In this document: positions 5,801 through 58,850 of the stretch, one piece after another
How positions within the stretch are numbered: position 1 is the first letter of the stretch
How the letters are laid out: the number at the start of each line of letters is the position of its first letter
From: Heterotrichella gracilis
Taxonomy: Eukaryota; Sar; Xanthophyceae; Tribonematales; Xanthonemataceae
Length of the DNA stretch: 64,000 nt
Assembly (NCBI GenBank): GCA_032358255.1
Contig: JAULBX010027052.1
Span: forward strand, 124,001-188,000
Reading direction: 5' to 3'
The notes under the pieces: generated by a model
Told to the model about the DNA's origin: nothing
Databases searched by the model: none
Seen by the model: the letters and a program-made list of their open reading frames with translations, nothing else
Position numbers and translations under genes: made by a program

Positions 5801-6654
5801 TTTCCTTCTTAGTGTCGTCCTCCTGGGGGGTCTCAGACCGGGATTTGAGGATTTGGGGGAGCACGTTTGCGGGACCTCCGGGGGGCAGGTGTGGCAGGGC
5901 CCAATACACAGACTGCGGGAGGGAGTGGGCAGGGGGTCAGAATAAGAAATGTCGATATGAATTTACCTGCAGCGCAGTATCCCCTCTGAAGCAGTGCCAC
6001 CATTCCAAACCCTAGCCTAGGGTTTCCCCACCTGCCCATAGCTTGCCCCTTCTGCCACAAAATACTTGAGCAGAGTGGAGTGGTTGGGCGAGGCGCCATC
6101 CTCGCACACCACCATCAAAGCACCCAGAGGCAGCCCCCCACCAAGCAATTTGTCGAGGTCAGCAAGGCCGGTGGAGATGAGGGTTTGGCCATGGAGGCCA
6201 GCCCGGGTGCCGGGGTCTGCGGGAAGGGTTTATAGTTAGGGTTTGGGTTAGAATTTAACGTCTGGTAGTTATAATGATAATAACAGCCGTGGAGGCCTGG
6301 CTGTGGAGCCCTGCTTCTGGTGCAGGGATTTGTGGCAAGGTTTAGACTTAGGATTTGGGTTAGGGTTTAGGGTCTGGCTGTGGAGGCCCGCTCATGTGCC
6401 GGGGTCTGCGTGAAGGGTTTAGGGTTTAGGATCAGGCAGGGGAGGCCCGCACTGGTGCCAAAGGCTGCACAACAAGGGATGTGGGATGCGAGAGATGGCG
6501 GTGGTGGAGACGTAACCTACAACTGCAGGCATCAAAACCCAACGGCAGGCTAAGCAAAATGGGACAGACAAGGCGTATGCTAGGCTGCACCACTCCTCCC
6601 CTACGTACCTATGTTTGCGCTGCCCCCTCCCTTGCGCACAAAGCTGCTAGGCAT
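2889..6654 (-). CDS. ELP4: Elongator complex protein 4 (PAXNEB family)
   Basis: Subunit of the Elp4-5-6 RecA-like ring of Elongator, which supports modification of wobble uridine in tRNA. Nine exons: 6609-6654, 6032-6216, 5695-5912, 5302-5487, 4552-4737, 4218-4297, 3834-3948, 3459-3545, 2889-3048. They sum to 420 codons plus stop with every phase matching. Family marks in order: STGLADLDKLLGGGLPLG with a following CED motif (ELP4 lacks the RecA P-loop lysine), LRIAWQYRRY, WCHQYDISR, RVAVASLGSPGWG, LLLRLKGVVR...VVTVP, FTARLHHLADVALVLEAV, LLRVIKLPATG and a basic RHKRRRLAID tail. Human ELP4 is of similar size (about 424 aa). The ATG opens a short 15-residue first exon before a conserved glycine-rich segment. 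The exon 4/5 junction could be shifted by a few bases. Decayed copies of the exon 2 edge lie in intron 1. Confidence 0.93.
3393..3411. repeat. interstitial telomere-like heptamers (ELP4 intron 8)
   Basis: Two adjacent AAACCCT units on the plus strand, just downstream (in gene sense) of the exon ending at 3459. On the transcribed strand they read as TTTAGGG. Confidence 0.8.
6217..6470 (-). repeat. echoes of the ELP4 exon 2 acceptor edge with telomere-like spacers
   Basis: Inside intron 1, directly before exon 2, the plus strand repeats a unit that reads as a G-rich 'tggaggcc' core, a 'ggtgc(c)' piece, 'ggtctgcg' and then 'aagggttta'. The genuine boundary is at about 6190-6230. Degenerate copies lie at about 6288-6345, 6370-6420 and 6428-6470, separated by GGGTTTAGG-type heptamers. 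Each copy carries the CGCAG acceptor or a decayed version of it. Confidence 0.75.
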
Positions 6655-7438
6655 CCTGGACGGGTGCTGTGGGGGCCGGGCTAGGCGGTGGGGGCGGGGC
6701 TGGCGGTGGCCAAAGGCCGCCCTTCTTGGGGAGGTGTTGTGCAATCTCCCGTATCCGAGCACATCTTTTACGTCGATCCTATATATCTCTATTGGTTGTT
6801 AGACTGATGTTGTCTTGGCTCTGTTGCTCTGAGCCCTATGCATGCATATGCATAGTACCAGGGTGAGCGGGGGATGCAACGCGAAGCTCAGCGAACGGCA
6901 TCAAGGCTAACAAGAGCAACACCAGCCGCATCAACCAGCGGTGCTACTGCGTTCCAAGATGGGAGCCGCGCGGCATCAGACAACTCAACATGCATCAACT
7001 GCGAGGATGCTGTGCGTGGACAGCGCTGGACTGAAGCGTGGGTTGGCGTTTGACTGTGGTAGAGACCTAACGGGTTCGGCGTAACAGTTGCCTTTGTGGT
7101 TTACGTCTTTGCTCAGTTTGGGTTCTGCTCTTGTGGCGGCTGCCCGGCAGTTTCTTTTCCTAGGGTTTTGCTGTCGACCCTTAGGGTCAAAAGTGTGGGG
7201 ATTATGCTACTGAGGTTGGGAAGTGGGTTTGCTGGCCCTGGCGGCAATGCATGCTGCCTGTATGTTACCCAGAGTCCCCTTGGGGTGCAGTTTGCCTGTA
7301 GCCGTGTAGGCTGGAAATCTATTGACACCATGCAGATGCATTCCCATGACGCAATCAATGGTTTGTATGGCTATCTGCAATGAAAGCACACGGGTGGAAC
7401 CACACAGGCATGGACGGTTAAAACCCCGCTTTTAGGGT
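6655..7438. other. intergenic: ELP4 upstream region and DNAJC16-like 3' region
   Basis: About 0.8 kb between the ELP4 start codon and the stop of the next minus-strand gene. It should hold the ELP4 promoter and the 3' UTR of the J-domain gene. A TGCATGCA-containing palindromic stretch lies at 6838-6854, about 185 bases upstream of the ELP4 ATG. No coding sequence or RNA gene is supported. Confidence 0.6.
6838..6854. promoter_or_regulatory. TGCATGCA (RY-like) palindrome upstream of ELP4
   Basis: The sequence ATGCATGCATATGCATA is nearly self-complementary and lies about 185 bases before the ELP4 start codon. In plants CATGCA is the core of the RY element bound by B3-type factors. Whether it has that role here is unknown. 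Similar strings occur upstream of DNAJC16-like and GTF2H2. Confidence 0.3.
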
Positions 7439-10400: not shown

Positions 10401-13400
10401 CGCACCACCACCACGCACAGCCGCGCCGCCGCCCCCCTGGAGCCCCGCCCCCCTCCCCACACACCGCACCCAACCTCCCATGCTGACATGGCACTCAGCC
10501 GAGGAGCCAGCTGGCGGCCATGCCTAGCCACCAGCCGATCCACATCAGCGTGGGAGGGTACAGGTTCGACCCTAGGGGCTGCTCCGGGTCCCTTGAAGAC
10601 CAACATGGCAGGGAGGCGCGTTATTTTGTACTGGTCGCGCCAGAAGGCTTCCGTCCCTGGGAGGACTCGGACCAGCCTGGGAGCATTGAAATGGGGATTA
10701 GTTTTGATGGAATGGAAAAGGATTCAATTCATATTGGTGCTTGGGTTTGTAAAGTCTACAAGCACCTCCCTGGTCACCACCCTAGCCGAACCCTAGCCTA
10801 AACGCTCAGCCAAACCATGGTGACATTGTGCCTGGGCAGCCTTCCAAACCCCTACCCAAACCCTAACTTAGCCCTTACTCGAACCATACCCAACCCATGC
10901 TGACGCTGTGCTCATATGTCTCAGCGGCTTGGCGCACTATCCAAACCCTTTTCCAACCCTAATACAAACCCTACGCAACCCCTGCCCACACCCTACCCAC
11001 CTGATGGTGACGCTGTTCTCGTGTGCCTGCGCGGCTTGCCGCACTGCCATTGGCTCCGGTTTTGTTGCAGGGGGGAGAAAATAAAGGATGCCCACGTGGT
11101 GGGAAGGGATCCTGGCCAGGAAAATTTCCAGCGTGTGGGGGTCCACCAGGGGCAAAATTGGCAGGCGCAGCAGGCGGTCCGTGGCAAATGAGTGCAACCT
11201 TGCCTGGGTCAGGGGGCCATGGTACCTGCAGATGTGGGGCACAACTGTGGTGGTGGGTGGTGGAGGCACTTTCTTAATGGATGTTTTTCCTTTTTTTTGG
11301 AATGCATTCCAGATGTAACACACGCTTATAGTAAGCATAGTTGCAGTACCAGGGAATTCGTGGAATCATTGCTTGGGATAACACTGGCTTTACAATCTAG
11401 TGTGCGGGCAAGGGGTGCACTAGTCCCACCGCCAGCGTGCGGCTAGTGCAAAACCAGGGGGGACTTTAAAACCCCTGTTAGCCTCAAATCCTTAACTACG
11501 TACCTAACCCCCACAGCCAGTCGACCTGCATCCTGAGGATAGCCCATGACCACCGGCAGGTGCATTAGCTTAGATAATTCCCTTCATTTCCTCAAATCCC
11601 CATTGGCACGTACCTAATCCCGCAGCCAGTTGACCTGCATCCCTTCGGATAGCCCATGACCACCGGCAGGTGTGAGAACTGCCCAAACTGGGTTACACTG
11701 GCCAGCATGCCGCTGATTTGGGCCACAAGCATGCGCTGGGATCCCCAATTCACCCTCCCCATTTTCACGCCCCCCTTGAGTGAGCCTGCCAGCGCTTCCC
11801 AGATGGGCGAGAATGCGCGGCAGGCAGGGGAGGAGGGATGGTAGATCTGATGACGAGGGGGGAAATTACCGTACTTGTGGGAACTACTGCGAGGGGCTTT
11901 CCAGACGGAAAGCTCACGTAATGGGTGGCGGCAGTGGTACTGATCTAACGGCAAACCACAATCACACTCACAACCCCTACAATCACAATGAAGGCTACAC
12001 CATACCGGACCATAGATAACAAGTCTAAAAGTGTAAGCGGCACTCCTGCCTGTTCTCTGTTCAAGTCCCACCATGGAAAGCCGTGCAAAGTTGTATTGAC
12101 CATGCATGGCAATTTAGGGTTTGACTAGGGTTTGTAAGCCCCACCAGCACCAGCGTAGCCCCCGCCCTCCCGCCAAACACCGTTTCGTGGAAGTTGAAAA
12201 AGGTGAGGGGGATGGTATCCGAAGGGATGTCCTCCTGATGCCCATGCCCCCCCTGGCGGCCCCACCCCTGGCCAAAATCGTGGTGCTGCTGCCTCCCCTG
12301 CCCTTGGTGCTGGTTGTGGTATCCCCCTTGGCCGTGCCTGCGTACATGTGTCAAGGGGGTATAAGGGCGAGTGGCTCGCTTTCCTGATGGTCCAAGAAAG
12401 CGAGTGGTGCAAGCTGCAGTTTGGAATGGTGTTGGCAAGGCTGCCTTGCTTGCCCTCCCAATGATCCTCAACTCTTAACTCTCGGAGCAGAGCAATCCAG
12501 GTCCCAAAAATGGCCAGGTGGCGCAGACTGTTCAACGGTTACAGCAATTCAGGCTGCACTAATCATCACAGCTGGTCACCGACCCGAGAAAGGCGTGCTG
12601 TATGCCAAGTTACACCGCACAAATGCCCTTGCAAGGACTTCAATCACTTGCATGTTTTATTCTATTCAGTAACGTACCCCCCCAGGTCATGCTGCCGCCG
12701 CTTCTCTGGGTTGCTCAAGGTGTCGTACGCATCCTGGGAGTGCAGGGGGGCGGGGTTAGCAAAACCCTTGTATAGGCTTTATGCGTACTGGGTGTCACAA
12801 GGAGGGTCGCAGGCAAAGCAGGTCGGCAAACCTTTCTTTAGGGTTGAATAGACTTACAAGGGCTGTAAATCCTGCAGATGCTGATGAAAAGCAGGGTTAG
12901 TGCAACGATAGTGACACCCTAGAGTAACGACCATTTTCAAGGATTATCATCCTAGGGTTTCCGTCACCCACCTGCACCTCCAGGAACCTGGCCTTGGCTG
13001 ACTTGCTAGGGTTCTGCAAGGAAGGATGGGTAGGGCTTATTTTTGAAGCTGAACGACGTATTGTTTCTTGGTAAGCACGTTCGCACTCATGAGGCAGTGT
13101 CAACGCTACACAACAAGCAACACTCACATCCCACTGCATACTTCAGAAATGTTTGAAAAATCCCTGTGCTACCGGTAGGTGCGATGGCAGCATGCCCTTG
13201 CCGCAAAAGCGCAAGATTTGCGGTATGGTGGAGCGTGAAACGCATGCATATGTGCTGTCCTTGCCAATGCATGCCTGCAACACCTAAACCCCCCCTGCAA
13301 ACCCCATGCAGCCTCACTATTTTCGAACCCCTCACCTTATCTGGGTGGTATTTCCTGGCCAGCTGGTGGTACGCTTTTTTTATCTGCCCCTCTGTAGCGC

Positions 13401-14523: not shown

Positions 14524-17500
14524 ATGGCAGACCCGGGCGGCAGCGCACTGGATGCCGCAGCCGCCGCCATGCGCGAGGTGGAGCAGATGGAGGGCGAGGG
14601 GGAGGACGGGGAAATGTGCGTGCGCCACCCAACCCCCACCCCACCCCAAATGCATGTCCACCACACACCATCGCACATGCACACACACACACACACACAT
14701 ATCACAACGATGGAGGGCTGAGGTAGAAGGGTGTGTGTGTGTGTATGCGTGTGCACACCATGCGCTTCCACCACCTCTCTGCCTCCTGTCCCCTTCCCCG
14801 CCAGCCCTACAATGTTGCTTTTACCCCTACTCTTACCTCCGAGTTGTCTCCCCCGTGATCCAGGGGTGAGGAGGAGCGAGAGCTTGAGGCCCAGGCGTAT
14901 GGCAGGGAGTATCAAGACGATCACTCGTGGGAGGACCTGGAGGAGGATGAGTATGGCAGGCTGCGGCCGCTGGTGAGGCCAAGGAAACCCTAGAAACCAT
15001 AAAACCCATTAAAAATCAAGGAATACCCTTGAAACCCTAATACCCTGATACCCGAGTGCCGTGGCGTGGAACTAGGCCTTGCTTGATTCTTGTGTGATGA
15101 ACTGGCTGCAAGATGGCCCCCGATTAAAATCCAAGCCACTTGCACACAGTCAAAACACCCCCAAACCGCCACATCACACACAGTATCCCGCCTTCCCCCT
15201 CCCCAGGATGGCCGCGAGGAGCAGCGGGGCAGTCGCCGCCGCCTGCTGTCCTCCGCGTCCGCCACGCGTTACCTAAACGCAAATCCCTAAACCCCATACC
15301 GCATGATGGGCGCGAGGAGCATGCTTTCCTCCGCATCCGCCAGACCCCACCCTTAACCCTAAACCCCTCCCCCCAGGATCGCCGCGAGGAGCAGCGCGCC
15401 CGCCGCCGCCGCCTGCTGTCCTCCGCATCCGCCGCGCGCATCCGCCGAGGCATGATCCGCTACCTGGTCCTGGTGGTGGACCTGTCGCGGGCTGCCTCCA
15501 TGACAGACATGCGGCCATCGAGGCTGGTGGTGATGGCAGGTGGGTGTCGTGTGGGGGTAAGAGGGGGCCGTTGTTGTATTGTCATGTGGGGCAACGAGGG
15601 ATTTCAGCGGGGCGGTGGCATCGGGGGGTCGCATGGCATGTGGAAAGTCGGAGGTGTATTTGGCAAAATGTGGGGCATTAGATTGTTTTGTGATTTAAAC
15701 AAATTTGCATACGCTGCTCATGTTGTATTTTGTTGTCCCAGGGATTTGCCAGGCCTTCATCCGCCAGTTCTTCGATGAAAACCCCCTGAGCCAGCTGGGC
15801 ATACTCGTGCTGAGGAACGGGGTGGCGGAGAGGCTCACGGAGCTGTCGGGAAGCCCGGTGAGACCATAAACCCTAAACCCCGCATACATAACCCTAGAAC
15901 CCTGCGGTGGCAGAGCGGCTCACGGAGCTGTCGGGCAGCCCGGTGAGCACAAACCTCTCCATGGGATAAATATGCCAGTTAAATGCGCTATATTTTGTCA
16001 CGCTAAATCAACTTCGTTTTGGTGCTGCACACTTCAGACCCAAGCACTGCCGCGCCACCTCATGCCCACTTCTATGAACCACCAGAATCCCTCATGCAGG
16101 AGGCGCACATCGCCAAATTGAAGGGGGCCTTATCCGCGGGGGGGGACGCCTCCCTCCAAAATGCCCTGGAAATGTCGCTGTCCTCCCTCAAATCCATACC
16201 CCCCTACGGCCACCGCGAAATCCTGGTATTATTCGCCTCCCTGTCCACCTGCGACCCCGGCAATGTTTTGGACACCATCAAGCAATGCAAACAAAATGCG
16301 GTCAGGGTGTCGATTATTGGCCTGGCTGCGGAGGTGCACATATGCAGGCATGCCACGCAGGTAAGGGGGGAAAGAGGGGCGGGGTTCCAGATTATACGGT
16401 AGGGTTGTGGTAATGTGTTTTGTCATTGCCTTTGGCGTTCTGGCAGTCCAGCCACATGTGCTTTGATCATAAAATGCCATACGGCAAGTTTATTCCCCTT
16501 TAATTACGGCCATTTTTGGGTCGACCCAAAGTACACGATAACATCCTGGACAAAGCACCTAACGATGTCCTATCAAGCCAGGAAAAGGCTTAAGGTATAA
16601 CTTAGTGTTTGTGTGTTGCAGAATCTACGTTGGTGCCTTCTTTGGTGTCTCCGAGGCCATGTGACCTGTTTTGCCCATCGACACCCATGCCATCACTTGG
16701 AAAGTTCCCTTGCCATTTGCACCATCACTGCCGCCTAGCATTTGAAGAGATGTCCGGGGGAAGCCCTGCTTAGACAGATGCCCCAGGGGAAGTTTTGGGG
16801 AAACACGACCTAGGTGTTCTAGGGTTTTGTGTCATGAATCATGATCATGGCCCCTTGCCCGTCACAGGAAACAGGGGGCACATATGGCGTGGCCCTCAAT
16901 GAGACGCATTTGGAGGAGCTGCTGGGGGCACATGCGCCACCCCCACCAGCGCTGGCGGCAAATGCCGCGGCAAGCCTGGTGGGTGGCCTCCTCCCCTGTG
17001 CATTGCCATGCGTCAACCCCCCTGCCACACGCCCTGGCAAACCCTTGTACAAACATGCACCTGTCCGACGCCCTACCAAGGGTGTTGGCTGACCTATGCT
17101 GGGTCATTGGTGGCGTAATTCTGGTCTGCTGGCATCAACAAGATTTGCTGTCCTCGTTTGCTGCAATGTGTATGTACCGCCCTAAACCCTAAACCCTAAA
17201 CCCTAAGCCCATATCTGACTTCAATGTATCAAGTGATAGATGCACGTCCTCGTGATGCATCAGTGGTATTGCCCCTTTATTGACATGTAAACAAGCACGG
17301 CTCCTGAAACTGAACTGTACCGCGCAACCTTGAAGTTTGCTCCCATCCCATCAATGTACTAACTGTAAATGTGTTCCATTGCTCAGGTGCGCATGGGGTT
17401 CCCGCAGCGCAACGCCGAGGGTCCCCTCTCGGTGGCGTTCTGCGACATTTCCGCCACCCTCCAGCCGGGAGGTTTCACCTGCCCCCGCTGCCTGGCACTG

Positions 17501-43800: not shown

Positions 43801-44916
43801 TCATCCTGCGCATGTCGGAGGTGGAAACCATGTTGCTGTTCAGCTGTGTAGCCCATGCACCAATCCCCTCCCCCTTGCCTCCCCTCCAGGTTGAGAAGGA
43901 GGTTGCCAAGATCATCCTGCTCATGTCTGAGGTTGAGACCGAAATCAGCCGCAAGAAGGGCGTGTCGCGCAAGGCCAAGGAGGTGCGGCGGGACATCGGC
44001 GCGGGCGAGCAGGAGGCGCAGCAGCTGGCGGCCAAGCAGCAGCACCTCAAGCGGCAGCAGCAGGCGCTGGCGGAGAGGCTGCAGCGGCTGGAACACCAGG
44101 TGGGTGGTTAGGTTTGCACATCTTGGCGTTGACGTGGATTTGTGCCCGTTAGTATTTACATGGATATGAATTAGCAATGGATTTACTGTCATTGCCATTG
44201 GGGTGGCGGTGGAAATGGGGGGAGCCTGGCGGGTTGCAGAGGGTGGAGCAACAGGTGGGGGTACAGAGGGAGGGGGGGGGGTGGCGGTGTGGGGGGAGAC
44301 TTTGCAGTGGAGATCCCCCACAATCATTTGCTCACTGTCCCTCCCGGACCACGCGTAGGGCGCCCTGAAGAAGGAGGCTGCTGCGTCTGTTGTTGAGGAG
44401 CAGCTGAAGGACAAGGAGGCAATTGCGGCGGAGCATGCGGCCACAATGGCCAAGATCGCAGAGAATGAGGCGCTGGTGAGGGGCGGGGGTGTGGGGAAAG
44501 GCCATGCAGCTCCATCATTTATTCTGAGTTTTCATGTCTGTTTTCCTTCCGGATTTTCTGCCTGGATTTCAAAGTGTGTTTATTACCGTGTAAAATACCC
44601 TAAACATGTTATTGATCAGTTAGTGTTGCAATTCGCGCCTGGTATGCTGGTTCCAACTGGACACTTTTGCTGATGGCGCGCAGCACAAAGCACTCCACGG
44701 CCACTGCCATGCCCACCTGCCTTACCCGCCTAATCTCCTCCACCCCCCTTTCCCCAGATGCGCGCCATGCGCGACAAGGTGCGCGAGGTCCAGGCCGCGC
44801 ACGCCGCCCAGGTTGCCGCTGTGCTTCAGCGCTACGACCAGCTCAAGCGGGAGGTGGCGGACTACCACGCGGGGCTGGAGGAGGCAATGATGGGGTGCTC
44901 GCAGATGGCGTGCTGA
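40834..44916 (+). CDS. NUF2: kinetochore protein NUF2
   Basis: Subunit of the NDC80 complex that links kinetochores to spindle microtubules. Nine exons: 40834-40997, 41094-41238, 41496-41660, 42396-42443, 42749-42949, 43358-43483, 43890-44099, 44359-44475, 44758-44916; 444 aa with perfect phase (human 464). Residues 1 to about 150 form the calponin-homology-like head: YVFPIIDNHEILACL (family FPxxxxxEI), KPMPEIVRPIYE, ELHDESIPTLAFMYHLNRLM, CGVKDFTMKDLYKPDP and the conserved NLSAIINFAKYREEKL. From about 155 to the end the sequence is heptad-like coiled coil rich in Glu, Gln, Lys and Ala (ERVELEALRQQL, EAEVAELYAENQQLNKQQ, KQQHLKRQQQALAERLQRL). The start is the ATG directly before the first conserved hydrophobic segment. 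Echoes of exons 3 and 7 lie in flanking introns. Confidence 0.94.
41661..41805 (+). repeat. tandem echoes after the NUF2 exon 3 donor
   Basis: A unit containing TTTGTTGCAAAGCGAGGTGA occurs twice (about 41690-41750). A third variant leads into a copy of the exon 3 end (about 41768-41800), with AGCTCAGGCAACAGCTGGTG matching the exon's final codons and donor. Confidence 0.8.
43777..43850 (+). repeat. upstream echo of the NUF2 exon 7 acceptor edge
   Basis: After its own TTCCAG at 43778 the copy reads VEREIPKIILRMSEVET. The genuine exon, about 110 bases later at 43890, reads VEKEVAKIILLMSEVET. The flanking intron text (about 43720-43770 and 43848-43889) is duplicated too, which shows that the duplicated unit included the branch-point and acceptor region. 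Confidence 0.9.
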
Positions 44917-45969: not shown

Positions 45970-48900
45970 ATGGCGACCCTGGTGGCCGAGAATGGCACCA
46001 AAGTGTCGACAAGAGAGGTCAGCTGCGGTCAATCGTGGTCCCAGACATGCCAGATCAACGCACCAGACACTGTTTTCACCAGTTCTCCACGTGCTGCAGG
46101 AATTTCTCACGGTGTACGAGGCGTTGAGGGATGAAATAGTGGAGGATGCGTTGTTACAAGGCCAGCCCGGGTTTGCAAAAGAGTACTTAATCAAGGTAGG
46201 CATGTTAAAAAAAGCATGACTTGGCATTTCCTATCGTGGGTGGTATGTTTGCAAGCTTGCTGCAAGTGAAAGAACCCAGTCAAGCCGCATCACGGTCTGG
46301 GGTGCATGCATCTGCCTGCAAAAGTGATCTGGGCGCAGCTCTGGCACTGCTTAGGTATGGGAAGAGAAGAAATGCACGACGTAATACGAGAAGTCAACCG
46401 TAGCTGTCAGGACATGTCAAACCCACTTTAAACTTGCTGCTATGCTAAATGGGCAACTCCATCAAGCCATGCCACACCCCTCAGTACAGTGCACTTCGCC
46501 ACCCACCACCACCACCACCAACTCCCAAATGGGGCAAACAAGTCACCAGTGGGCCACATCAAATCCACAACCCCTCACACCCGAAGCGTAAGCCCCTGCA
46601 CAGACAACTGCCCATCTGACAAAATGCCATCTCAAAAGGACTCGAAAGTGAGTCCCTCTCAACCACCGTGGGGACTCCGTGCGTGCAGATGCTGGACTAC
46701 AACGTGCCAGGTGGCAAGCTCAACCGGGGCATGGCAGTGCTGGATGCGCTCAAGGCGATCAAGGGGGCAGAGGTGGGGCTCGCGGGGGTGGAATGTGCGT
46801 GTGAGGTGTCACATTAAATACAGTACTGCCTGATGCAGTGTGCACTTTCATAGCTTTGCGCACATCCTGGTTCATGTAAGGCATGCGTTTATGTCCTGTA
46901 TTGATGTGTTGTGCCTGCCAGTGTGGCGCGACACATTAAACCCTAAAAATCGTTGCCGCCGTGATGCAACACGCTAGACCCTAACCCCGGACCCTAGATA
47001 TAACACTTATCTCCAGCGGACGAGAGGTGTGCGTCATCTTGATACCCTGCAGCACTCCAAAACCCTACACCTAAAACCCTGGCGCATCACCGTGGCACTC
47101 CCTGCCGGCCCGGGCTAACATTCTCCCCCTGCCAACCCTTGTGTAGGGTGTGAGCGAGGCAGAAGCGTTCAAGGCCAACGCTCTGGGCTGGTGCATAGAA
47201 TGGGTACGTCGTCCAACCTACACCCACCGCGCCTGCACATAACCCTGGCTAGGGTTTATTTCAGCCTGCCATTGCCGGGGGATAACGTACTTGCGTTCAC
47301 AGCAAAATTTGAATTGTTTCTTCCTTGCGCTCCTGTTTATTCCCTGGTATCGTCTGCACACAACCCTTCCCTCTCCCACCCCCCAGTGCATGCACCAGAT
47401 GCGATATTTTGCGTCAGGGGCACTATTTTGTGGCTGAGGCTCCGTATTGTTTCTGCCGTGTGCACCTCCAAGCTTTTTTGCCTTGTTGCCGATGACATCA
47501 TCAACACCCCAGCACCTTGAAAACCCTAAATAAAGCCCTGAGCTCCCCGCCTGCAGCTTCAGGCCTTCTTCCTTGTGGCTGATGACATCATGGATAACTC
47601 CATCACGCGGCGGGGGCAGCCCTGCTGGTACAGGAACCCAGGGGTGAGTAGGGGGGGATACATTGGGGAAATGGAAGTAGGAGGAGGACAAATGGTGATG
47701 CACGTTGCAACTGCACGCTTCCCCGGGATCTAGAACCGCCTCACCAGGGAGTTCCATGCCTCTTTCGGGGTGCGGCGGGCTTTTCATCGTTGTCTTGTTC
47801 TGTTACATGGTGGTACTGCCCTAGGGGGGATGGTGCTGTCACAGTAAAAATGGAGGGGTGGGTACATCAGATGTGGGTACATACGACACCCCCTCATATG
47901 GCCACACAGGCTCCCCCATGAAAGGACTGCGGCAGGGTATTCATAACTGCTATGTTCCTGGATACCCCACCACATATGTACACGCGCAGCCACAGGGTGG
48001 CATGGGGTTGTCGGTGATGGTACCATGCAGCATCTCACGTGCACGGGTGTCAATACAAAGGGCCGCAGAAAAATGAGGCGCTTTGGGGCAACAAGGAGCC
48101 TCACTGGTTGCCTGGTAAAATCACTGCACCTCCACCCCCTCCCGTCATTCCCACCCCTGCCTCTCCAGGTTGGCATGGTTGCCATCAACGACAGCATCAT
48201 GCTGGAGTGCTGCATCTACCGGGTGCTCAAGAGGCACTTTGGGGCCGACCCTGCCTACGTGCACCTGCTGGACCTGTTCCATGAGGTGGGGTTCCTAGGG
48301 TTCCTAGGGTTTTGGGCCGGACCTCGTGTATGTGGACGTGCCAGGGACGCGTCAGGGACCCTAAATAGGGTTTTGCAATGTGTGTTGCACTGCAAGCGCA
48401 TGGATCCAACCTCGGATTACAGCTCTATATGGTTTAGGGATTAGCATCGCAGGGCTTGCATGCACCCAGATACCACAGGCCTGACACAGCAGGCGATGGT
48501 TAAATATGCCTGTCACTGTATGGCATGTTGGCGCATCCATGCCCCAACTTGCATGGTCTTCTCCTCCCCTGCATTCACCCATATTTCCTTCCCTCCCCTT
48601 GCCAACCCCTCCCCTCCCCACCCACCCCCGCAGACCACCTTCCAGACCAGCCACGGCCAACTATTGGATCTCACCACAGCACCCATCGGCACGGTAAGGG
48701 GGTAGGAGAGGCGGGGAGATAAGAGGTACCAACGGGGGCAGGGCAGGTGGAGGTTGAACCCTACCTCTCCACTCAAAACCCTAAAAGCCCACAGGTTGAC
48801 CTTGCCGAGTACAGCCTGCCCAGCGTGGACACGTTTTCGACCCTAAACCCCAACCCAAGACCCTACACCCTAATCCTGTCCGTGTAGGTCGACCTAGTTA

Positions 48901-50379
48901 AGCACACCCTGCCAACCATAGACATTCTTCAACCCTAATCCTAAACCTAAACCGTATCATTCTTTCAGGTTGACCTAGCCAAGTACACCTTGCCCACCTA
49001 CATGCGCATCGTGACACATACTCCAACCCCAAACCCCAACCCAAAACCCTAAACCCTACTCCTCTCTATGCAGGTTGACCTAGCCAAGTACACCCTGCCC
49101 ACCTACATGCGCATCGTGACCTTCAAGACAGCTTACTACTCCTTCTACCTGCCGGTGGCATGCGGGCTGGTGATGGCCGGGCGGGGGGGGGCGGAGGCGC
49201 TGGGGGTGGCGGAGAAAATCTGCCTGCAAATGGGGCAGTACTTTCAGGTGGGTGTGTTGGGGGTGTTGGGGGACATGTGGTTGCAGAAGGGATAGCAACA
49301 TGATTTTGGGGTGGAGAATGTTGGGTGGGTGGCGGGAGATGAAGGGTGTGCAAATGCGGCAGTATTTCCAGGTGGACGGCGGGTGTTGTGGGGTGTGTGG
49401 TTGCAGATGGATAGCAATTCGGGGTCGGGGTGAGGGGAATGGTGGGGTGCAGGAGTGTGCTTGCAGGTGGTGTAGGCTTTGTAGGCAGGGGTGGGTGGGG
49501 TGCAGAACGGGAGCTTGCAGACGGGTAGTACGGGAGTTTCAAGGTGTTGGGCGGGGCCGTCGATTACCCTGTCGCCTACAAAGGGAAGTCTTCACCCCTC
49601 ACTTGCCCCCCAGCTTCACAACGGCTACCTATGACTACCTCCATTACGCCAAATTACTACCTGCTTAACCCTAAAACCCTCGCTTGCCCCCCAGATCCAG
49701 GACGACTACCTGGACTGCTACGGCGACCCCTCGGTGATTGGCAAGATCGGCACCGACATCAAGGACAACAAGTGCTCGTGGCTGGTGGTGCAGGCGCTGG
49801 ACAGGGCAAGCCAGGAGCAACGTGCGGTGATTCAGGTGGGTGTGTGCATGCAGTGGGGGTTTGGGGCTTAGAGCTTGGGTGCAGGCGCTGGCTAGGGCAA
49901 GCCAGGAGCAGCAAGCGGTGATTCAGGTGGGGGTGTGCATGCAGTGGGGGTTTGGGGTTTAGAGCTTGGGTGCAGGCGCTGGACAGGACGAGCCAGGAAC
50001 AATGGGCGGTGATTCAGGTGGGTGTGGTAAAATTAGGATCAATAGGCGTGCAGTAGGTGGGCCCATTCCGCACTAAACTCTGCACTACACCCTCGCCCAA
50101 GTCTTAGAGTTTCTCACATGCCACAAACCACAAACCCACCTGCACCACGGCCACCCTTAAACCCTAACCGCTGCCTTGCAGGAGCACTACGGCAAGGAGG
50201 ACCCTGCTTCCGAGGCCCTGATCAAGGGGGTGTACCTGGATTTGGGGCTGGAGGGGGTGTTCAAGGCATATGAGCAGGAGAGCTATGGGGAGCTGCAGGC
50301 CGCCATTGAGGGACAGAACCTGGTACCTCACGACGTGTTCAACCTGCTTCTGAAGAAGATCTACAAGCGGACAAAGTAG
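45970..50379 (+). CDS. FPS: farnesyl diphosphate synthase
   Basis: Condenses dimethylallyl diphosphate with two isopentenyl diphosphates to give farnesyl diphosphate, the precursor of sterols and prenyl groups. Ten exons: 45970-46017, 46100-46195, 46689-46772, 47147-47203, 47557-47643, 48169-48285, 48634-48693, 49074-49247, 49695-49835, 50182-50379; 353 aa, every exon a multiple of three. First aspartate-rich motif DDIMD (104-108), preceded by Phe-Phe at -5/-4, the type I eukaryotic pattern for C15 product. Second motif DDYLD (244-248). Also [40 protein letters not shown] (Lys201), [15 protein letters not shown] and a C-terminal KIYKRTK. There is no N-terminal targeting extension, so the protein is probably cytosolic or peroxisomal. 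Uniform phase-0 introns are notable, as are heavy edge echoes around exons 5, 8 and 9. Confidence 0.97.
47461..47520 (+). repeat. decayed upstream echo of FPPS exon 5 (catalytic-motif exon)
   Basis: About 90 bases before the genuine exon (47557) a degenerate copy repeats the acceptor-side sequence through the GATGACATCAT string that encodes the first Asp-rich motif. It is followed by a spacer containing AAAACCCTAAA. Confidence 0.72.
48795..49073 (+). repeat. three upstream echoes of the FPPS exon 8 acceptor edge
   Basis: Copies begin right after AG dinucleotides at 48795, 48888 and 48969; the genuine exon is at 49074. Each opens with GTTGACCT or GTCGACCT and runs into codons for [12 protein letters not shown], with the closest copy almost identical for about 45 bases. 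CCCTAAACCC-type heptamers fill the spacers. Spacings are about 93, 81 and 105 bases, so this is a decaying tandem array whose last unit is the real exon. Confidence 0.95.
49296..49480 (+). repeat. downstream echoes of the FPPS exon 8 donor edge
   Basis: Past the donor at 49248 the exon end recurs at about 49347-49376 (GCGGCAGTATTTCCAGGTGG). Fragments built around GGGTG and GGTTGCAGA follow to about 49480. Confidence 0.7.
49878..50025 (+). repeat. two downstream echoes of the FPPS exon 9 donor edge
   Basis: Two copies of about 50 bases repeat the last codons of exon 9 ([15 protein letters not shown]) plus the GTGGGTG donor, at about 49881-49930 and 49971-50025. The first is nearly identical to the exon. 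Confidence 0.93.
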
Positions 50380-51749: not shown

Positions 51750-54700
51750 TTAACCCTTGAAATCCCCATCGAAGCCTGCAAAGCCCGCCAGCTTAAACAC
51801 CGCGTGGTAGCGCTTCTTCTCAAGCTTGGAGCACCAGTTCCATGCAGAGGTGAGGCGGCCATCGATGCAGGACCCCGCGTCAAAGAAGTTGTCTGCGCCG
51901 CTGCCATCGAAGGCGTGGCGGAAGAAGTCGCACAGGATCTCCTTCCTGGGGAGGGAAGTGTGGGGGGGGGGGGGAGAGGTGAGAAAGGGGGAGGGGGGGT
52001 TATGGTGGGGCAAGCAGTGGGTGGTGGTGTTAGGCAGTGGACGGTGGTCATTTTGTATGTGGAGTGCAAGTTTGTGGCGTGGTGTGCAGCTTGAAAACAA
52101 TTGCCAATTTAAAGTTGCTAATAATCCTCAGTCCTGGAATCCTGGCCCCCCTCCCCGCCTCACCCACCTGCACTCCTCCACCCCTCCGAAAGTGTCCTTC
52201 AGATACGCTTGTAGCTGTGGGTCCTTGGCCAGTGCAGGCAGCGCCTCCAGCACCAGTACCACCGGGTTGAGGATGCGGGGCACCTGAGAAGTGGGGGGTG
52301 GGGGGTCAGGGCACGAGAGGAGGGAAGGACGGTGGGATTTGGGTGCAAGCCATGACCCACACACTGCGCATGTTGTTGTTGGTGCCAGAAAGGGTACCTG
52401 GAGTGGCAGGCGCAAAGATAATAGAGGGCAGGGGTGGGATCCACCCACCACCACCACCCACATGCATGTACTGCGACTGTGAGAACAACTGGGCACTCAT
52501 TGTGGTCGACCAGACAGACCACCTACCACCCCCACCCCCACCTGCGTGTTGTACTTGTCAATGAACATAGGCGCCTTGGGCACGTTGTGGTCACTTGTGT
52601 CATTGACCCCCCCCATCCCTCGAACGAACCCCATCTGCATCACTAACCCCACCCTCGCCCCCCTCCACACCACCACACCCCTCACCTGCGTGTATTTGTC
52701 TATGAACATGAGCGCATTCGGCACGTTGTGGTCGCCCATGTGGATGACGCTGGACCCAACCCAGGACCCCACCCTTGCCTGGCAGCGCATGAGGACAGCG
52801 TGCATGGCTCGGCTTGTGTCGGGGGATTGCTGCACGCGATTCAGGCCCTGGCCTGCGGTGGTGGGGGGGAGGTGGTGGGTGGTGGTGGTGGTGGTGGTGG
52901 GTGAGTGTGTGCCATGACATGTGGTGTGTGGAATGCTGGTTTTTGGTGGCGTATAAAATGTATCCTAGTTGGCAGGCTATGCTGGTTGGCACATTTAGGA
53001 CGTTTATCAGACGATCGGCTTCCTAAATGTATTGTGTTTGGTAGGGTAGAGGGGAAAGGGGGTAGGTAAGCCTAGGGCCACGTGGGCTGACCTACTCCAG
53101 CAGGACCTCAAGTCGCGTGGGATCAATAGATGGTTCAAATAGTGCCAGGAAAGAGCTGCGTGGCGCCGCATATGCAAGACTGACTGATAATCTGGCTATT
53201 TTGCTGGAATGCATGTAACTTACTAACTAGTTGGCAGGTGTGCACATGCATGCACAAGACACATGAGGTGGTGCAGGTCAGCGCTCATCATCGGATGATC
53301 AACCAAACTTCCTGGGTAGCCCTAACCCCAAAGCCCCCACCTGTATTCACCGGCCTGTAGCCCTCACCCAACAACTCCACCACCCCATTCCCCTCGCACA
53401 GCACGTCCCCCTCAGTCAGGCACCACAGGCGGAACACCCCCTACAGCCTAAACCCTAAACCCTAGACCCTAAACCCCACCTGTGTTGACCAGCCTGTAGC
53501 CGTTCCCCTCCCGCAGCAAATCCCCCTCCGCAAGGCACCACAGGCGGAACATGTCATGCGCCACCTCCCGCCACAGCGCAAGCGACTGGCGCACAAACGC
53601 GTACTGGCGGGCGTGGTTGTGGGTCAGGCGCGCGCCGCCCATGCCCCCGGAGATGGCGAGGGAGTAGCCGGGCTCGGGGGTGGTAGGGTCAAAGTGGGCC
53701 TCAAGGAAGGCAATCATCCTGTGATGGCGGGTGGGGTGTGCGTGTGAAGGTGGGGAAGAGGATGGGGGAGGGAGGGCGAAGGGCGTGTTTCCCCATTAGC
53801 CATGGCTTGACACTGGGGTTGTATTGGACCGGAGTGCATGGCATTTGGTCGCTATGGGTACATGCGTCAGCTGGTCATCCAGTCACAGGATCAACAATAA
53901 ACATGTTCAAATGACCAACCAGTCGCCTGATCATATGCCTGGCAACCCACGCACACTACCACACACCCTACCTGTCCACAGGGTCTTAAACCAACAACAG
54001 AAACCCTAAACCCTAATCCCCACCTGTCCACGAGGTCCCGGTTGAACAGCAGGAGGCTGTTGTTGTCACCGATGCATTGAAAACCCTAAACCCTAACCTA
54101 AACCCTACCCCACCTGTCCACTGGGTCCCGGTTGAGCAGCAGGAAGCTGTTGTTGTCACCAATGCATTGAAAAACAGAAACCCTAAATCCTAAACCCTAA
54201 ACCCTAAGCTTACCTGTCCACTGGGTCCCGGTTGAACAGCAGGAAGCTGTTATTATCACTGATGCTGTACATGCACCGCAGCAGGTCATCAGCAGGCAGC
54301 GCGGAACTGGAGTGCGCCTTCGCCAGCACCTCGCGTGCCCTCTCCTTGGCGCGGATGGCGCGCTGCACCTCGGGGCGCGTGCGGCCGGCGGTGGGGATTT
54401 CGGCGGTGGCTGTGTGCAGCAGGGGGTCGCGCAGCAGTGCCAGGCCGCCCTTCTCCTCAAGCAGGCTGCGAGATGAGGGGGGGGGGGGGGGGTCACAATG
54501 ATCAATGAAGAGAAATATTTCAACACACAGCCACCCCACATGCACATCGTCTCTTACACCGCACCCCCCATCTATACACTCTCCCCAGCACGCACTGGAA
54601 ATTTTTACCCACACCCGTCACCTGTACACCGTCCACATGGGTCGCACACACATTTGAAATCCAGCAGGTCCTGCACCCCCCCCTCGCAACTGTCCAAGAG

Positions 54701-57700
54701 CAGGTACACTCCACCACCCACCTTCCACATGCACACCGTCTATAAATGCTCACCCCCCTCCTAGACACCCTCCCCAGCAATCACGCGCATTGGATTTTTT
54801 GTGATCCCCACTCCCCCGCAAACCCCCACCTGTACACCGTCCTCATTGGTCGCACACACTTGAACTCCAGCAGGTCCTGCACCCCCCCCTCGCAGCTGTC
54901 CATGAGCATGTACACAAGCTTGCCGTACTCCCCGCGCATCTTCTCCGGGTTCATCACCTTGTGGCGCCTGCCCACCTCAAACACGTCCTGGAAGAAGGCC
55001 GCGTTGTCCTTGAAAGACCTGCGGGTGGTGATCTTCTCATTAAGTTGCTCATATGCAAATTATGCAGTGGAATTTGTATGCACTGGAATTTAGTGTCATG
55101 GAGACAGCCTTGCAGTAAGCACACCCACATTGCATTGCATGCTGTGATGCGCCACCGCCGTCAGGGAGGTCTCCAAAACCCACCCCCCATCCCACCCCAC
55201 CCACCCTCCACCTATCCACAATCAGCTGCTGCCCATCCTTGTAGTTCTGGGCGACCACCAGCCCGCACAGGATGGCGCAGCCCCCCGTCCCTTGACCACA
55301 CCCACCTCAACACCATCAAACGCTGCCCCTTCCAGGAATGTTGCGCAACCATTCGCCTGAACCTGACCCCCACCCCGCCAGGACCCCTCACACCCACCTG
55401 TCCACAATGAGCTGCTGCCCCTTCTTGTAGTTCTGCGCCACCACCAGGCCGCACAGTATGGCGCACACGTCGCGTATCTGTGTGTGCGCGCGCTGTGTCT
55501 TGCTCTTCCAGCTCACCACATCAACCTTGTCGGTGTATTCGCTCACCTACAGGGACGAAAATGATACAATGTAAATTAAACAATAAAAAAAATATTATTA
55601 CGCTTCCTGTCCTCGGATTCATTCTTTGTACTCGCTCACCTTCAGGGCATAAAAAGGAACAGTCATTAATAAATAAATTTACTCTGGTTAAAAAGCTGTG
55701 AATCATGAGTGATGCTGATGAATGGATGAATGGCGCGTACTTGTGCAAGGCTGCCTGCTGATCTGACTTTACTGGCAGAATGCACGCAATCTGCTTGCAC
55801 TGCTAGAGTGCATGTAGAGTGCACAACCACCCGCTCAACACCAGCGCCCCCTCCCCTCCAGCATATATAGGCATCTTTAAGAACAAAAACATTATTATTC
55901 CATTTCTTTTGGTATATTTTGTTATTGCTCACCCCCAGCGCCCCCTCCAGCAGCCTCAGCAGCCTGCGCTCCTCCATGGTGAGGCGCAGGGGGATGAAGC
56001 GGGCGCGCTCACTGAGGTCAGAGGTGGTGGCGGTGGGGGGCGGGAGTAGGGTGGCGGCAGGGGTGGCCATGTCCGCATCCTGCACGTCATGAAAAACCGT
56101 CAGATTATGCATTTGCCTGCGCTTGCGCGTCAAATGGGTGCCATTTTGTGAGGTCGCACGTCACAGTACCATCAATTCCATGTATCTGGGCACTGTCTAC
56201 TGCTCACGCAGCCACACCCCTGTGCGACATGCGCAAGTGGTCTGGTCTATGCAATATTGTAAATCATGCTCAAATGGTGGATGACTGGTGGCCGGCGGAG
56301 TGTCAACGTATGCTTGGAGGCATAATTCCTGGTTCTGATATGAAGACAGGCCACCCCGCCCCACCGCGCTCATTCCCCCATGTCCCCTCCCCGCCCATCC
56401 CCTACCACTCACCTCCCCTAGCGCCCCTGCCTCCTCCTCCCCTTCCTCCCCCTCATCCCCTGCCTCCCTTGGTCGCTTCATCTCAACATCGTCGGGAATG
56501 GACAGGTCAGCCTGCGAGGCAACACAAAGCTTAGCTAAGCAATGTCTTTAGACTAAATGACGATGACCGGTGGAACCATCATATGCCCAGACATACAGTT
56601 GATCTTGCCACATGCCCAAGGTCTACAGCCAGCCCCTGGCAAAAGCGCATCGAAACCTTCCTCGTGACCGCTTTTGACACTAGTTACACGGGGCATAACT
56701 ATGACATCTGTTGGCCTGACCCCCACTGCCCAACCATCCAAGCCCGCCCATCCATGCGCCAAGTGGCACTCCATCACCCTCCACGCATTCCATGCCATGC
56801 ACCACGTGGCACTACCCACCATCACCACCACCACCGCCCGCTTTGCGCTACCCTTTGCCAGCTCACCACCACCACCACCACCACCACTGCCACCACACCC
56901 ACCACCACCACCCACCTGCGTGGAGCTGCGCTTAGCCCGCTCCACATCCGCCCGCTGCTGCGATGCAAACGCCTTGGCCTCCCGAGCAACCTCCTCAAGG
57001 GCCTCACGCAGCTTGAACACCTGGCGCAGCCAAAGCTTTAATTCTAGGGATTATCATCCTTAAATTTAGGGTTTGGCTGTCTGCATGCTCCACGGTGCAA
57101 AATCTACTGCCGTAATCGTCGCAGTTAAAGCTGCTGTTTACAATTACACTTGCAAATTACACGGGGTGATGCTGGTTACAATACAGTACTGTCAGACAAT
57201 GGTACTTGCCATACGGTGATACTTAGCAGTGAGAAATATTCTTGCAAGCACCTGAAGCACTTCACCCCTGCAAACACTTCTGCATCACACCCACATGCCC
57301 CACCCCACCCAGACCCCTCACCTGGAACGCCAGCCCCTCCGGCCCCCCTCCCCCGTTTGCCTCCACCCCCCCTTGAGCCCCGCTGAACAGCGCCTCCACT
57401 GCCTGCGCCTGGCGCAGCACCTCGAGTGCATCCGCCTCCTTCTGGGCGGCATACTCAGCCAGCTGCTCCTGCGCCACCTGCAATCACATGCGCCAATCCG
57501 ACTCTTCAGTCTGTAATTTATACAAGCATATATATGCGCCAACCCCGTGTCTCAAGCTAAATTCCATTTTTGCGTGTCTTGTGCACGCATGCCTGCATGC
57601 AGTGTGGCGCCTCCTTCTGTGCGGCATATTCTGCCAGCTGCTCCTGAGCCACCTATGAAATCACGCTGAGAAGCTCACCTAGATGGTTTGTCGGTCTATA

Positions 57701-58850
57701 TGCCACCCTGCACCACCTATGCGCCAAGCAATCATCAACACGGCTATGCAAAGCCATGGATGCATCCCAATTGGGCATGTACGCGCCTGCATAGAAAAGC
57801 CTCACCTCCCCCCCCTGGCATGGCATCTAAGCACCTGCAGGCTGCGTGACCTGTCCAGCGCCTCAGCTTGAAACCCTAACTTGGACCTAAAACCCTGACC
57901 TCCCCCCTTAGCATTACGCCTCCCACCTGCGACTTGCATGTCCTGCCCAGCGCCTCAGCCTAAAACCTAAACCCTTCTTGGCATGGCGTTCCGCACCTGC
58001 AGCTTGCGTGCACTGTCAAACGCCTCAGCTTCAGCGCGTTGTCGCCCTAGCTGCTCCTCTGCAAGGGGAGGGGGAGTGTGGGCATTTACGCATGCAGGGA
58101 GTCAGGATGAAAGGGGAAATCTGTGAAGGCAACTTCTGCCTGCATGGATGGATGTGACGGACCAAAACACGCACATGGCATGCAAACAACACGCGTTGCA
58201 CTGCGTGCACCACCGCCCATGTCTGCTTCCTTGCATGCAATCGCCATGACCAGGGGTGTTAATATATAAACCAGGAATCCCAGGAATTCCTGGTTTATAT
58301 ATTAACACCCCTGCCATGGCAGAGCACATCAATGCGTACTCACCATACAGGCTTATCGATGTATCTTCCTCCCCTGTGTGCCCGTTCTCCTCACCCCCCT
58401 GCTCAGTCACCATGCTGGTCCCCTCCTCGCTATCCAGCACCTGGTGCAGAATGACATAATTATTTACTGCAGCAATTCAGACGAGGTTGCGACAGTTTAA
58501 CCCAACAAGCCAACCCCAGTGTAAAAATTACACCAGCTTGCTGAAAGGTATAAAGCCTGCCGCATTGCTTTTGTACCAAATGATACGTAAGGGGTCACAG
58601 GCAACTCCCGGGCAGAGCGCTCCCCCATCTCGGGGAGGCACGCAAGAGCAGCAAATCTTATGCAAGGGTAGATTATAATGCTGGATTCCCACAACCACTC
58701 TTACCAACCCTTAAGCAGCCCTAACCAGCCAGCACCCACCTGGTTGAGTGCTGCGTGCTGCACGCCGCCCCCTCGCTCCCCCATGTCTGACCGAAACACG
58801 CTGCCCAGCGCGCGGCACAAGTCGCTGAGGAGGCCTGGCGAGCCTGTCAT
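51750..58850 (-). CDS. UPF0652/DUF2009 protein with coiled-coil N-terminal extension
   Basis: Function unknown. Fourteen exons: 58740-58850, 58344-58440, 57997-58058, 57322-57477, 56916-57020, 56413-56511, 55933-56079, 55398-55546, 54830-55018, 54214-54465, 53480-53718, 52686-52852, 52168-52283, 51750-51945; 694 aa, all phases consistent. The eukaryote-wide DUF2009 region covers about 215-694, from memory of the family: RFIPLRLTMEERRLLRLLE, VSEYTDKVDV, MNPEKMRGEYGKLVYMLMDS, SDNNSFLLFNRDPVDR, RLTHNHARQYAFVRQSLALW, MFRLWCLAEGDLL, GSWVGSSVIHMGDHNVPNAL and the signature AFDGSGADNFFDAGSCIDGR. Its Asp, Asn, Cys and His residues look conserved enough for an enzyme, but no reaction is known to me. 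Residues 1-210 (six exons) are acidic and coiled-coil-like (EEQLGRQRAEAEAF, LAEYAAQKEADALEVL) and go beyond the usual family start near residue 214 (MATPAATLL). The first exon could begin further upstream. Confidence 0.8.
52538..52605 (-). repeat. echo of the UPF0652 exon 12 donor edge
   Basis: Past the exon ending at 52686 a copy of its last codons (NVPNALMFIDKYTQ region) recurs. It shares plus-strand GGCACGTTGTGGTC and CACCTGCGTGT, about 145 bases into the intron. Confidence 0.85.
53338..53460 (-). repeat. echo of the UPF0652 exon 11 donor edge
   Basis: About 100 bases repeat the 3' end of the exon ending at 53480 with an insertion. Plus-strand GGCACCACAGGCGGAACA is shared exactly. CCCTAAACCCTA-type heptamers separate copy from exon. 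Confidence 0.87.
54013..54213 (-). repeat. tandem echoes of the UPF0652 exon 10 donor edge with telomere-like spacers
   Basis: Copies of about 60 bases at about 54024-54083 and 54114-54172 repeat the exon end (codons NNSFLLFNRDPVD) with its donor; the genuine boundary is at 54214. A shorter remnant lies near 53970. Each spacer is AAACCCTAAACCCTAA-like, giving a copy-heptamer-copy-heptamer ladder with a period of about 93 bases. Confidence 0.95.
54477..54492. repeat. G homopolymer in UPF0652 intron 9
   Basis: An uninterrupted run of about 16 G on the plus strand directly at the acceptor side of exon 10 (poly-C in gene sense), acting as an extreme polypyrimidine tract. Its length is likely to vary. 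Confidence 0.85.
54604..54705 (-). repeat. echo of the UPF0652 exon 9 donor edge
   Basis: About 85 bases repeat the 3' end of the exon ending at 54830, with shared plus-strand ACCTGTACACCGTCC and CCAGCAGGTCCTGCACCCC. A further partial remnant is visible near 54535-54600. Confidence 0.88.
55205..55280 (-). repeat. echo of the UPF0652 exon 8 donor edge
   Basis: About 70 bases repeat the end of the exon ending at 55398, still reading VAQNYKDGQQLIVDR in the same sense. They lie about 185 bases into the intron. Confidence 0.9.
57600..57658 (-). repeat. echo of the UPF0652 exon 4 acceptor edge
   Basis: Upstream in gene sense of the exon starting at 57477, about 55 bases repeat its first codons (AQEQLAEYAAQKEA). 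The shared plus-strand string is GCCAGCTGCTCCTG. Confidence 0.88.
57834..57996 (-). repeat. two echoes of the UPF0652 exon 3 donor edge
   Basis: Copies at about 57834-57880 and 57926-57962 repeat the exon end at 57997 (AEAFDSARKLQ codons and the CAG|GTG donor). The shared plus-strand string is CAGCGCCTCAGC, with AAACCCTAA-like spacers. Confidence 0.88.
58251..58313. mobile_element. short palindromic (MITE-like) element, copy 2
   Basis: A perfect inverted repeat: 28-base arms at 58251-58278 and 58286-58313 around a 7-base spacer. The outer ends are CAGGGGTGTTAATATA and TATATTAACACCCCTG. It sits in intron 2 of the UPF0652 gene. It is the same element as 51658-51723, but without mismatches between the arms, which suggests recent insertion or turnover. 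Confidence 0.75.

Follow-up and report, generated by a model that had tools for sequence, protein, structure and literature searches.

We found that introns in a 64,000-nt stretch of the genome of the alga Heterotrichella gracilis (the window; C454:124001-188000 of a 68.5 Mb assembly in 903 contigs) carry degenerate direct copies of the adjoining exon edge. Most of these copies, which we call echoes, include the splice junction, many are separated from the exon by telomere-like repeats, and several in a row form ladders. On balance, we believe that the echoes are probably scars of staggered breaks over splice junctions that were repaired with target duplication, often with telomeric filler. 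An original prediction made from the sequence of the window had described decayed tandem copies of exon boundaries in eight genes (ELP4, DNAJC16-like, GTF2H2, CGI-58-like, PSME4, NUF2, FPPS, and UPF0652), and each of these genes has at least one echo. Its plain tandem duplication stands as far as duplication over junctions is concerned, but it overlooked the telomere-repeat filler between the copies, which shifts the mechanism to break repair with filler.

Direct repeats at splice junctions

The algal set comprised 145 kb, namely the window and 13 other loci of its own genome (seven of 3 kb and six of 10 kb). These 13 loci are a non-random sample: the 3-kb loci (L002-L008) were chosen via a splice-like pattern, two 10-kb stretches (L029-L030) adjoin the window, and L031-L034 are hand-chosen mid-contig stretches. 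Junctions were predicted by a self-training gene finder written for this analysis, which settled on the canonical sites CAG/GTGAGT and TGCAG/G and gave 248 introns in the 145 kb. The models were cleaned before the edge test described below by dropping 31 predicted exons by hand, 21 of them in the window. The cleaned models contain 217 introns, of which 14 outside 90-1200 nt were excluded and 203 tested. Contig C1 of the same assembly (L009-L028; 894 kb), with a GC content of 0.33-0.39 and long open frames, is apparently bacterial, either a symbiont or a contaminant; the assembly is mixed. Looking bacterial, C1 was dropped as an additional algal sample and served as a negative control only.

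Comparison of the window with itself yielded 33 direct pairs within 4 kb, 32 at a spacing of 59-191 bp and one at 279 bp. When 60 kb from the window and 200 kb from C1 were shuffled by dinucleotides, no pairs were obtained; native C1 (200 kb) had no pairs at 40-200 bp and 28 at >=200 bp. Within 600 bp, the algal set holds 51 direct pairs versus 1 inverted pair. The latter, the sole local inverted pair of the set, lies at L002:1745-1898 and has arms of about 50 bp.

A unit is junction-spanning when the duplicate crosses the exon-intron border, as in a potato gene discussed below. On the uncleaned models this holds for 40 of the 51 pairs, with 7 more in exon sequence without a junction, 3 intronic, and 1 intergenic; the claim that the copies always include the splice site was not borne out. 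On the cleaned models the 51 pairs collapse into 40 families: 31 junction, 5 exon, 3 intronic, and 1 intergenic. The window contributes 25 of them (20 junction, 4 exon-anchored, 1 intronic) and the other algal loci 15 (11 junction, 1 exon-anchored, 2 intronic, 1 intergenic). Junction- or exon-anchored families thus make up 36/40, and 12/13 where the best identity is >=86% (P=3e-6). The mean identity of the 51 pairs is 82.6%, and copies differ by 5-30%.

The last or first 60 exon bases were also aligned to their own intron. At a score of >=40, matches were found for 16/202 donor and 12/201 acceptor edges (28/403 in all) versus 0/2015 shuffled introns and 0/2015 other introns; exon-interior segments gave 1/243 and intron-interior segments 2/184. 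Existing splice junctions on several contigs thus carry short direct duplications in excess over both exon interiors and shuffled introns, the comparison that the original prediction had called for. At a score of >=33, a cut-off fixed only after control maxima of 32 were known, echoes stand at 35/403 edges (9%; 20 donor, 15 acceptor) and in 32/203 introns (16%); to speak of introns filled with copies was an overstatement. Echo introns are longer than the others (median 384 vs 301 nt, p=0.003). This fits the suggested lengthening of introns, yet longer introns also give detection more room. The proposed link to intron gain by AGGT tandem duplication failed: in-register homology of the two intron ends was seen in 0/203 introns at a score of >=20, versus 2/1013 mismatched introns, and this model was rejected.

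Telomere repeats between the copies

At the median, the 31 junction-crossing echoes comprise 47 nt (23-65) of exon and 18 nt (4-115) of intron. Units have a median of 70 and are mostly 50-100 bp long, about two thirds of it exon, and the copies are separated by spacers of 0-136 nt (median 40 nt). The distance of the outer copies from the opposite splice site has quartiles of 188-318 nt, only 1/35 being within 15 nt of it.

Spacers of >=12 nt (n=31) were scored for likeness to telomere repeats. Telomere-like tracts (score >=14) occur in 18/31 spacers versus 129/1240 random interior segments of equal lengths; 11/31 spacers reach >=20, the control being taken at 14 only. At the level of whole introns, tracts with a score of >=22 are present in 18/32 echo introns and 23/171 other introns (Fisher p=6e-7), in 0/203 shuffled introns, and in 0/219 exons. 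At >=18 the counts are 22 echo introns, 46 other introns, 4 shuffled introns, and 9 exons. Arrays of the unit CCCTAAA start 4-7 bases from the starts of contigs C70, C140, C526, C609, C717, and C770; for a part of the echoes, the spacer unit is the telomere repeat of this very genome. Exons of a telomerase RNA-binding domain are also present in the genome. Clear telomeric spacers are found in L006 (AACCCTAAACACTAAACCCTGCAACCCTAA) and L029 (AAACCCTAAACCCTAAACCCTAACCCTA) and in the window at 15821, 36994, 53320, and 54001. The most similar pair, in L006 (94.7%), has a spacer of 30 nt of telomere repeats.

The tracts are oriented on one side of the intron. Acceptor-side spacers have CCCTAAA in sense in 8 cases, TTTAGGG in 0, and no tract in 7, whereas donor-side spacers have CCCTAAA in 5, TTTAGGG in 5, and no tract in 10. 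TTTAG/G is itself a good acceptor that would compete with the real one, which likely accounts for the lack of TTTAGGG on the acceptor side. On the uncleaned models, CCCTAAA heptamers outnumber TTTAGGG 20-40 nt upstream of acceptors. In introns without an echo, 12 tracts begin <=20 nt from the donor (3.5 per kb) versus 0-0.25 per kb beyond 60 nt; on the acceptor side the edge excess is small (0.3-1.2 tracts per kb within 60 nt vs 0-0.67 beyond).

Ladders, age order, and decay of the copies

Ladders are not confined to the window. Among the first 100 listed matches of CCCTAAACCC-TGCAGG there are nine same-strand neighbours 48-172 bp apart, on eight contigs. Ten further loci were fetched, seven from these neighbours and three similar ones from another motif list; being chosen as repetitive, they show that ladders exist elsewhere and not how frequent they are. 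Direct repeats were found in nine of the ten (none in L041), the largest being L035 and L038 with four or five copies. One copy in L038 matches the presumed exon without a difference until it breaks off sharply, followed by five bases and then by telomere repeat. Motif counts over the whole genome point the same way: GTGAGT followed by CCCTAAACCC occurs 157 times versus 85 with a scrambled hexamer. This is weak proof, as the majority of these hexamers lie outside splice sites. The count of 1058 for CCCTAAACCC before TGCAGG versus 617 for GGGTTTAGGG is likewise weak proof, TGCAGG itself having no scrambled control.

The copies had been thought to be more decayed with distance. Six ladders were measured (W denotes the window position): similarity falls with distance in two (W54001, W48966), does not in three (W49787, L038, W6180), and is flat in one (L035). 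An age ladder by distance is therefore unsupported in most of them, and units seem also to have been multiplied as blocks.

Mismatches in the exon part amount to 9.4, 5.8, and 20.1% at codon positions 1, 2, and 3. Positions 1 and 2 together differ at 73/962 sites (7.6%) and the intron part at 119/787 (15.1%); this half rate is expected when one copy is constrained and the other free. Exon-part indels are found in 8/31 copies and an in-frame stop in 2/31. Given the excess at position 3, and at position 1 over position 2, some copies may have been translated at some time.

Echoes in the window and their genes

The echoes and ladders of the window are as follows, with window coordinates, strand, and description; inner denotes the copy beside the exon and outer the spare one.

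6180-6459, minus: ELP4 acceptor-side ladder; inner edge 6180-6232, copies 6298-6377, 6369-6421, and 6416-6459, telomere-like spacers
10842-11045, minus: DNAJC16-like donor echo; inner 10951-11045, outer 10842-10938
11482-11672, minus: DNAJC16-like pair, 11482-11562 and 11590-11672; adjoins an 11-nt predicted exon; whether it spans a junction is uncertain, and the cleaned models class it as intronic
15195-15438, plus: GTF2H2 acceptor echo; inner 15365-15438, outer 15195-15268, 96-nt spacer that holds telomere-like tracts as well as a partially deleted third copy
15821-15955, plus: GTF2H2 donor echo; inner 15821-15872, outer 15906-15955, 33-nt telomere-like spacer
20781-21024, minus: CGI-58-like donor echo; inner 20940-21024, outer 20781-20865, TTTAGGG-like spacer
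23710-23966, minus: PSME4 intron array; 69-bp unit, 3.2 copies, extending to a predicted donor
25676-25898, minus: PSME4 donor echo; inner 25829-25898, outer 25676-25745
32124-32281, minus: PSME4 acceptor echo; inner 32124-32182, outer 32224-32281, telomere-like spacer
35160-35313, minus: PSME4 acceptor echo; inner 35160-35217, outer 35255-35313
36994-37162, minus: PSME4 acceptor-side echo; inner 36994-37046, outer 37110-37162, spacer containing AAACCCTAAACCCTAAAC
41634-41810, plus: NUF2 donor echo; inner 41634-41677, outer 41766-41810
43733-43940, plus: NUF2 acceptor echo; inner 43843-43940, outer 43733-43829
47461-47591, plus: FPPS acceptor echo; inner 47552-47591, outer 47461-47501, telomere-like spacer
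48792-49120, plus: FPPS acceptor-side ladder; inner 49032-49120, copies 48931-49015 and more within 48792-48917, CCCTAAA-rich spacers
49225-49417, plus: FPPS donor echo; inner 49225-49298, outer 49349-49417
49787-50026, plus: FPPS donor-side ladder; unit of 91 bp in 2.6 copies, inner 49787-49877, then 49878-49968 and 49969-50026
52525-52733, minus: UPF0652 (DUF2009) donor echo; inner 52669-52733, outer 52525-52592
53320-53551, minus: UPF0652 donor echo; inner 53460-53551, outer 53320-53436, TTTAGGG repeats in the spacer
54001-54265, minus: UPF0652 donor-side ladder; 3 copies spaced by about 92-100 bp, with telomere repeats in between
54528-54915, minus: UPF0652 donor echo, its unit the longest; inner 54715-54915, outer 54528-54709
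55194-55465, minus: UPF0652 donor echo; inner 55383-55465, outer 55194-55279
57433-57664, minus: acceptor echo of a gene model spanning 56.4-58.4 kb; inner 57433-57487, outer 57608-57664
57795-58031, minus: donor-side ladder of that gene model (56.4-58.4 kb); inner 57979-58031, further copies at 57816-57869 and inside 57889-57967, TTTAGGG-like spacer

Pfam identifies the products of nine gene models: Tim44-like, ELP4 (as PAXNEB), GTF2H2 (with an Ssl1 domain), FPPS, NUF2, abhydrolase, DUF2009 (UPF0652), PSME4 (with a PSME4 HEAT domain), and DnaJ. For the CGI-58-like product Pfam gives alpha/beta hydrolase only, and the DNAJC16-like product is recognised by its DnaJ domain, the thioredoxin match being below its cut-off. 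The FPPS model is nearest to green algae. Identity spans 47-66% over its top seven matches, of which six are algae (64-66%) and one is a land plant (47%); it is 61-66% for those named green algae that score best, and in an FPPS tree the model stayed unplaced among chlorophytes. The echo exon predicted at 48792-49120 and the ladder at 49787-50026 are both absent from the FPPS of six algal relatives.

Two of the exons dropped by hand are worth mentioning. The one at 20728-20745 (minus strand) in the CGI-58-like gene is 18 nt long (VEHLIL), keeps the frame of the adjacent exons, and seems to be a true micro-exon; the one at 11515-11525 may be a micro-exon. Outside the finding, the gene with the Tim44-like domain at 36-1484 (plus strand) has no echo in the pair list.

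Proposed mechanism and alternative explanations

A founding echo would arise when a staggered DNA break straddles an exon-intron junction. Fill-in of both single-stranded ends would give a direct target duplication, mostly of 50-100 bp, and telomere repeat, perhaps supplied by telomerase, would often be added as filler before the ends are joined. The product would read exon edge with splice site, telomeric filler, and exon edge with splice site again. Presumably the splice site beside the exon body stays in use, the filler and the spare copy are spliced out, and the cell survives; the discarded copy would then decay almost freely. Some units, filler included, might later be multiplied by ordinary tandem-repeat expansion into ladders of three to five copies. 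An excess of 51 direct pairs over 1 inverted is what fill-in of staggered ends gives, while template-switch or snap-back copying, which would yield inverted copies, was rejected on the same count. In rice, patch-like fill-in reportedly gives short tandem duplications. For the scarcity of echoes in intron interiors, our first guess is that breaks occur mainly in exons and that only those reaching over a junction are tolerated. A bolder guess is that splice junctions are break hot spots in this lineage, routinely healed by telomerase, so that telomeric filler together with duplication over the junction acts as a standing engine that extends introns at their edges, adds donor and acceptor sites, and gives rise to micro-exons, with telomere repeats date-stamping the events; we regard this as possible but rather doubtful.

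Several observations weigh against repair of staggered breaks with telomeric filler. At the cut-off, 13/31 spacers have no telomere-like tract, so the filler is either not universal or decayed, and in echo-free introns the tracts crowd the donor side only. Joints were viewed by eye for break nucleotides in register with the telomere repeat, a signature of telomerase, and were unconvincing, their boundaries being blurred by decay. Position 3 differs more (20.1%) than the simple model of one free copy predicts, and position 1 more than position 2. Exon-biased breaks predict many duplications in untranslated exons, of which one candidate, in L032, was seen in a small sample. This is a direct pair just beyond the end of a gene model (L032:3220-3406), possibly in a 3' untranslated exon. 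The junctions themselves are predictions of our own gene finder, those 31 hand removals included.

Detection also favors junctions. Duplications might occur anywhere, with only those on conserved exon staying recognisable, and this was simulated because a spare exon copy stays recognisable longer than two free intron copies. Duplications were placed uniformly where tolerable, decayed at assumed rates, and then passed through the program used for detection. With lengths taken from matched unit plus spacer, a better null than an earlier one that took the total copy distance as unit length (45% junction), the junction share of detected pairs is 25-39% at tau 0.05-0.25 (identity 94.2-80.7%), 52% at tau 0.3, 63% at 0.35, and 89% at 0.4. 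The bias is thus real, and the last value also counts against our preferred reading, as the null alone reaches 89% for such old duplications. However, tau 0.4 gives an identity of 78.6% against the observed mean of 82.6%, every identity bin of the pooled simulation predicts 30-35% junction, and the anchored share among the families of high identity stays at 12/13. The binomial P for 36/40 anchored families runs from 1e-15 (expected 0.29) to 3e-7 (expected 0.52, the value at tau 0.3). After both simulations, each run at assumed rates, detection bias was rejected as sole cause, and we consider this explanation very improbable.

Ordinary minisatellite growth at exon edges, by replication slippage or unequal exchange with pre-existing telomere-like stretches carried in the unit, agrees with several arrays that have a constant unit including the spacer (91 bp in W49787, pairs 95 bp apart in L035 and L038) and with the telomere tracts that lie near donors where the intron shows no echo. 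The junction bias in 36/40 families has no explanation under slippage, though, which would not simply leave the many two-copy echoes whose spacer (median 40 nt, range 0-136) lies outside the matched units; we think this origin unlikely. If selection instead kept the copies, whether as splicing elements or as small exons used alternatively or in mutual exclusion, this would explain why splice sites are kept, why the gene finder read several copies as in-frame exons (14-codon units in FPPS), why mismatches are codon-structured (9.4/5.8/20.1%), and why the tracts have an orientation (acceptor-side spacers, 8 C-type versus 0 G-type; donor-side spacers, 5 versus 5). The exon-part indels (8/31), the in-frame stops (2/31), the lack of the FPPS copies in six relatives, and the divergence of positions 1 and 2 at half the intron-part rate, as for one free copy, make selection quite unlikely. 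Direct repeats flanking an insert would also be left by an introner-like mobile element entering splice junctions with target-site duplication. Here the insert is telomere repeat or unrelated filler and exon edges match no other intron (0/2015, a comparison that covered exon edges and, of the spacers, only the shared telomere unit), so that such an element is hardly credible. As for an assembly or contamination artefact, the assembly is indeed mixed and C1 looks bacterial, but copies that differ by 5-30% and occur on many contigs, with C1 free of pairs at 40-200 bp in 200 kb (though with 28 at >=200 bp), leave it a negligible probability.

Significance and relation to known systems

Intron lengthening and splice-site multiplication have so far been inferred mostly from single cases. 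In our sample about one in eleven exon edges (35/403) has a junction-side copy, many of them telomere-tagged. If this holds genome-wide, one assembly with transcripts, plus one close relative, could tell how old and how large very many events are, how they are oriented, and what became of them, and telomerase or telomeric DNA would shape gene structure far from chromosome ends. Judged by title and start of abstract, none of the matches listed among open-licence PMC papers describes telomere-spaced exon-edge ladders.

Related direct duplications are known from other introns. In the excerpted text on the potato RdRp gene, a tandem duplication crosses the intron-exon border as here; that case concerns one locus where a new intron was made, with no telomeric filler mentioned, whereas we see many loci of one genome (PMC4974935). 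The AGGT intron-gain model, as cited there, shares the short direct duplication involving splice sites but predicts in-register homology of intron ends, which we found in 0/203 introns (PMC4974935). Daphnia neointrons contain internal direct repeats in 55/90 cases, read, like ours, as products of repeated staggered breaks that lengthen introns (PMC4202315). The excerpted Daphnia text does not contain 'telomer', and our copies are tens of bases long and near one edge of introns that are not shown to be new (PMC4202315). Direct repeats at intron borders are also the subject of Rogers and Bendich 2025, where, in the part available, repeats of 4-30 bp are shared between the two borders of an intron, unlike the long exon-edge copies inside the intron reported here (PMC11782384).

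Telomere motifs within genes have a precedent in plant telo boxes, which according to the excerpted account were acquired inside genes, are commonest in 5' regions, and have been ascribed to telomerase acting at free 3' ends; ours lie at splice junctions with duplicated flanks (PMC3022908). Another close likeness is to mammalian interstitial telomeric sequences, where telomere repeat at a double-strand break can be accompanied by direct target duplication, reported in the available text for 6/130 rodent, 4/25 primate, and 3/66 horse loci (Nergadze 2007, PMC2246262; horse/human study 2020, PMC7215372). The horse study ascribes the target duplication to staggered breaks and, in the part available, finds the intronic share of human interstitial telomeric loci to fit random insertion; for break nucleotides in register with the telomere repeat it gives a chance expectation of 25% (PMC7215372). 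In mammals duplications are a minority, while the duplicated targets here are mostly 50-100 bp over splice junctions and the units grow into ladders (PMC2246262, PMC7215372). Telomeric break-repair insertion with target duplication is of a known kind, and what would be new here is its concentration at splice junctions and its expansion into ladders.

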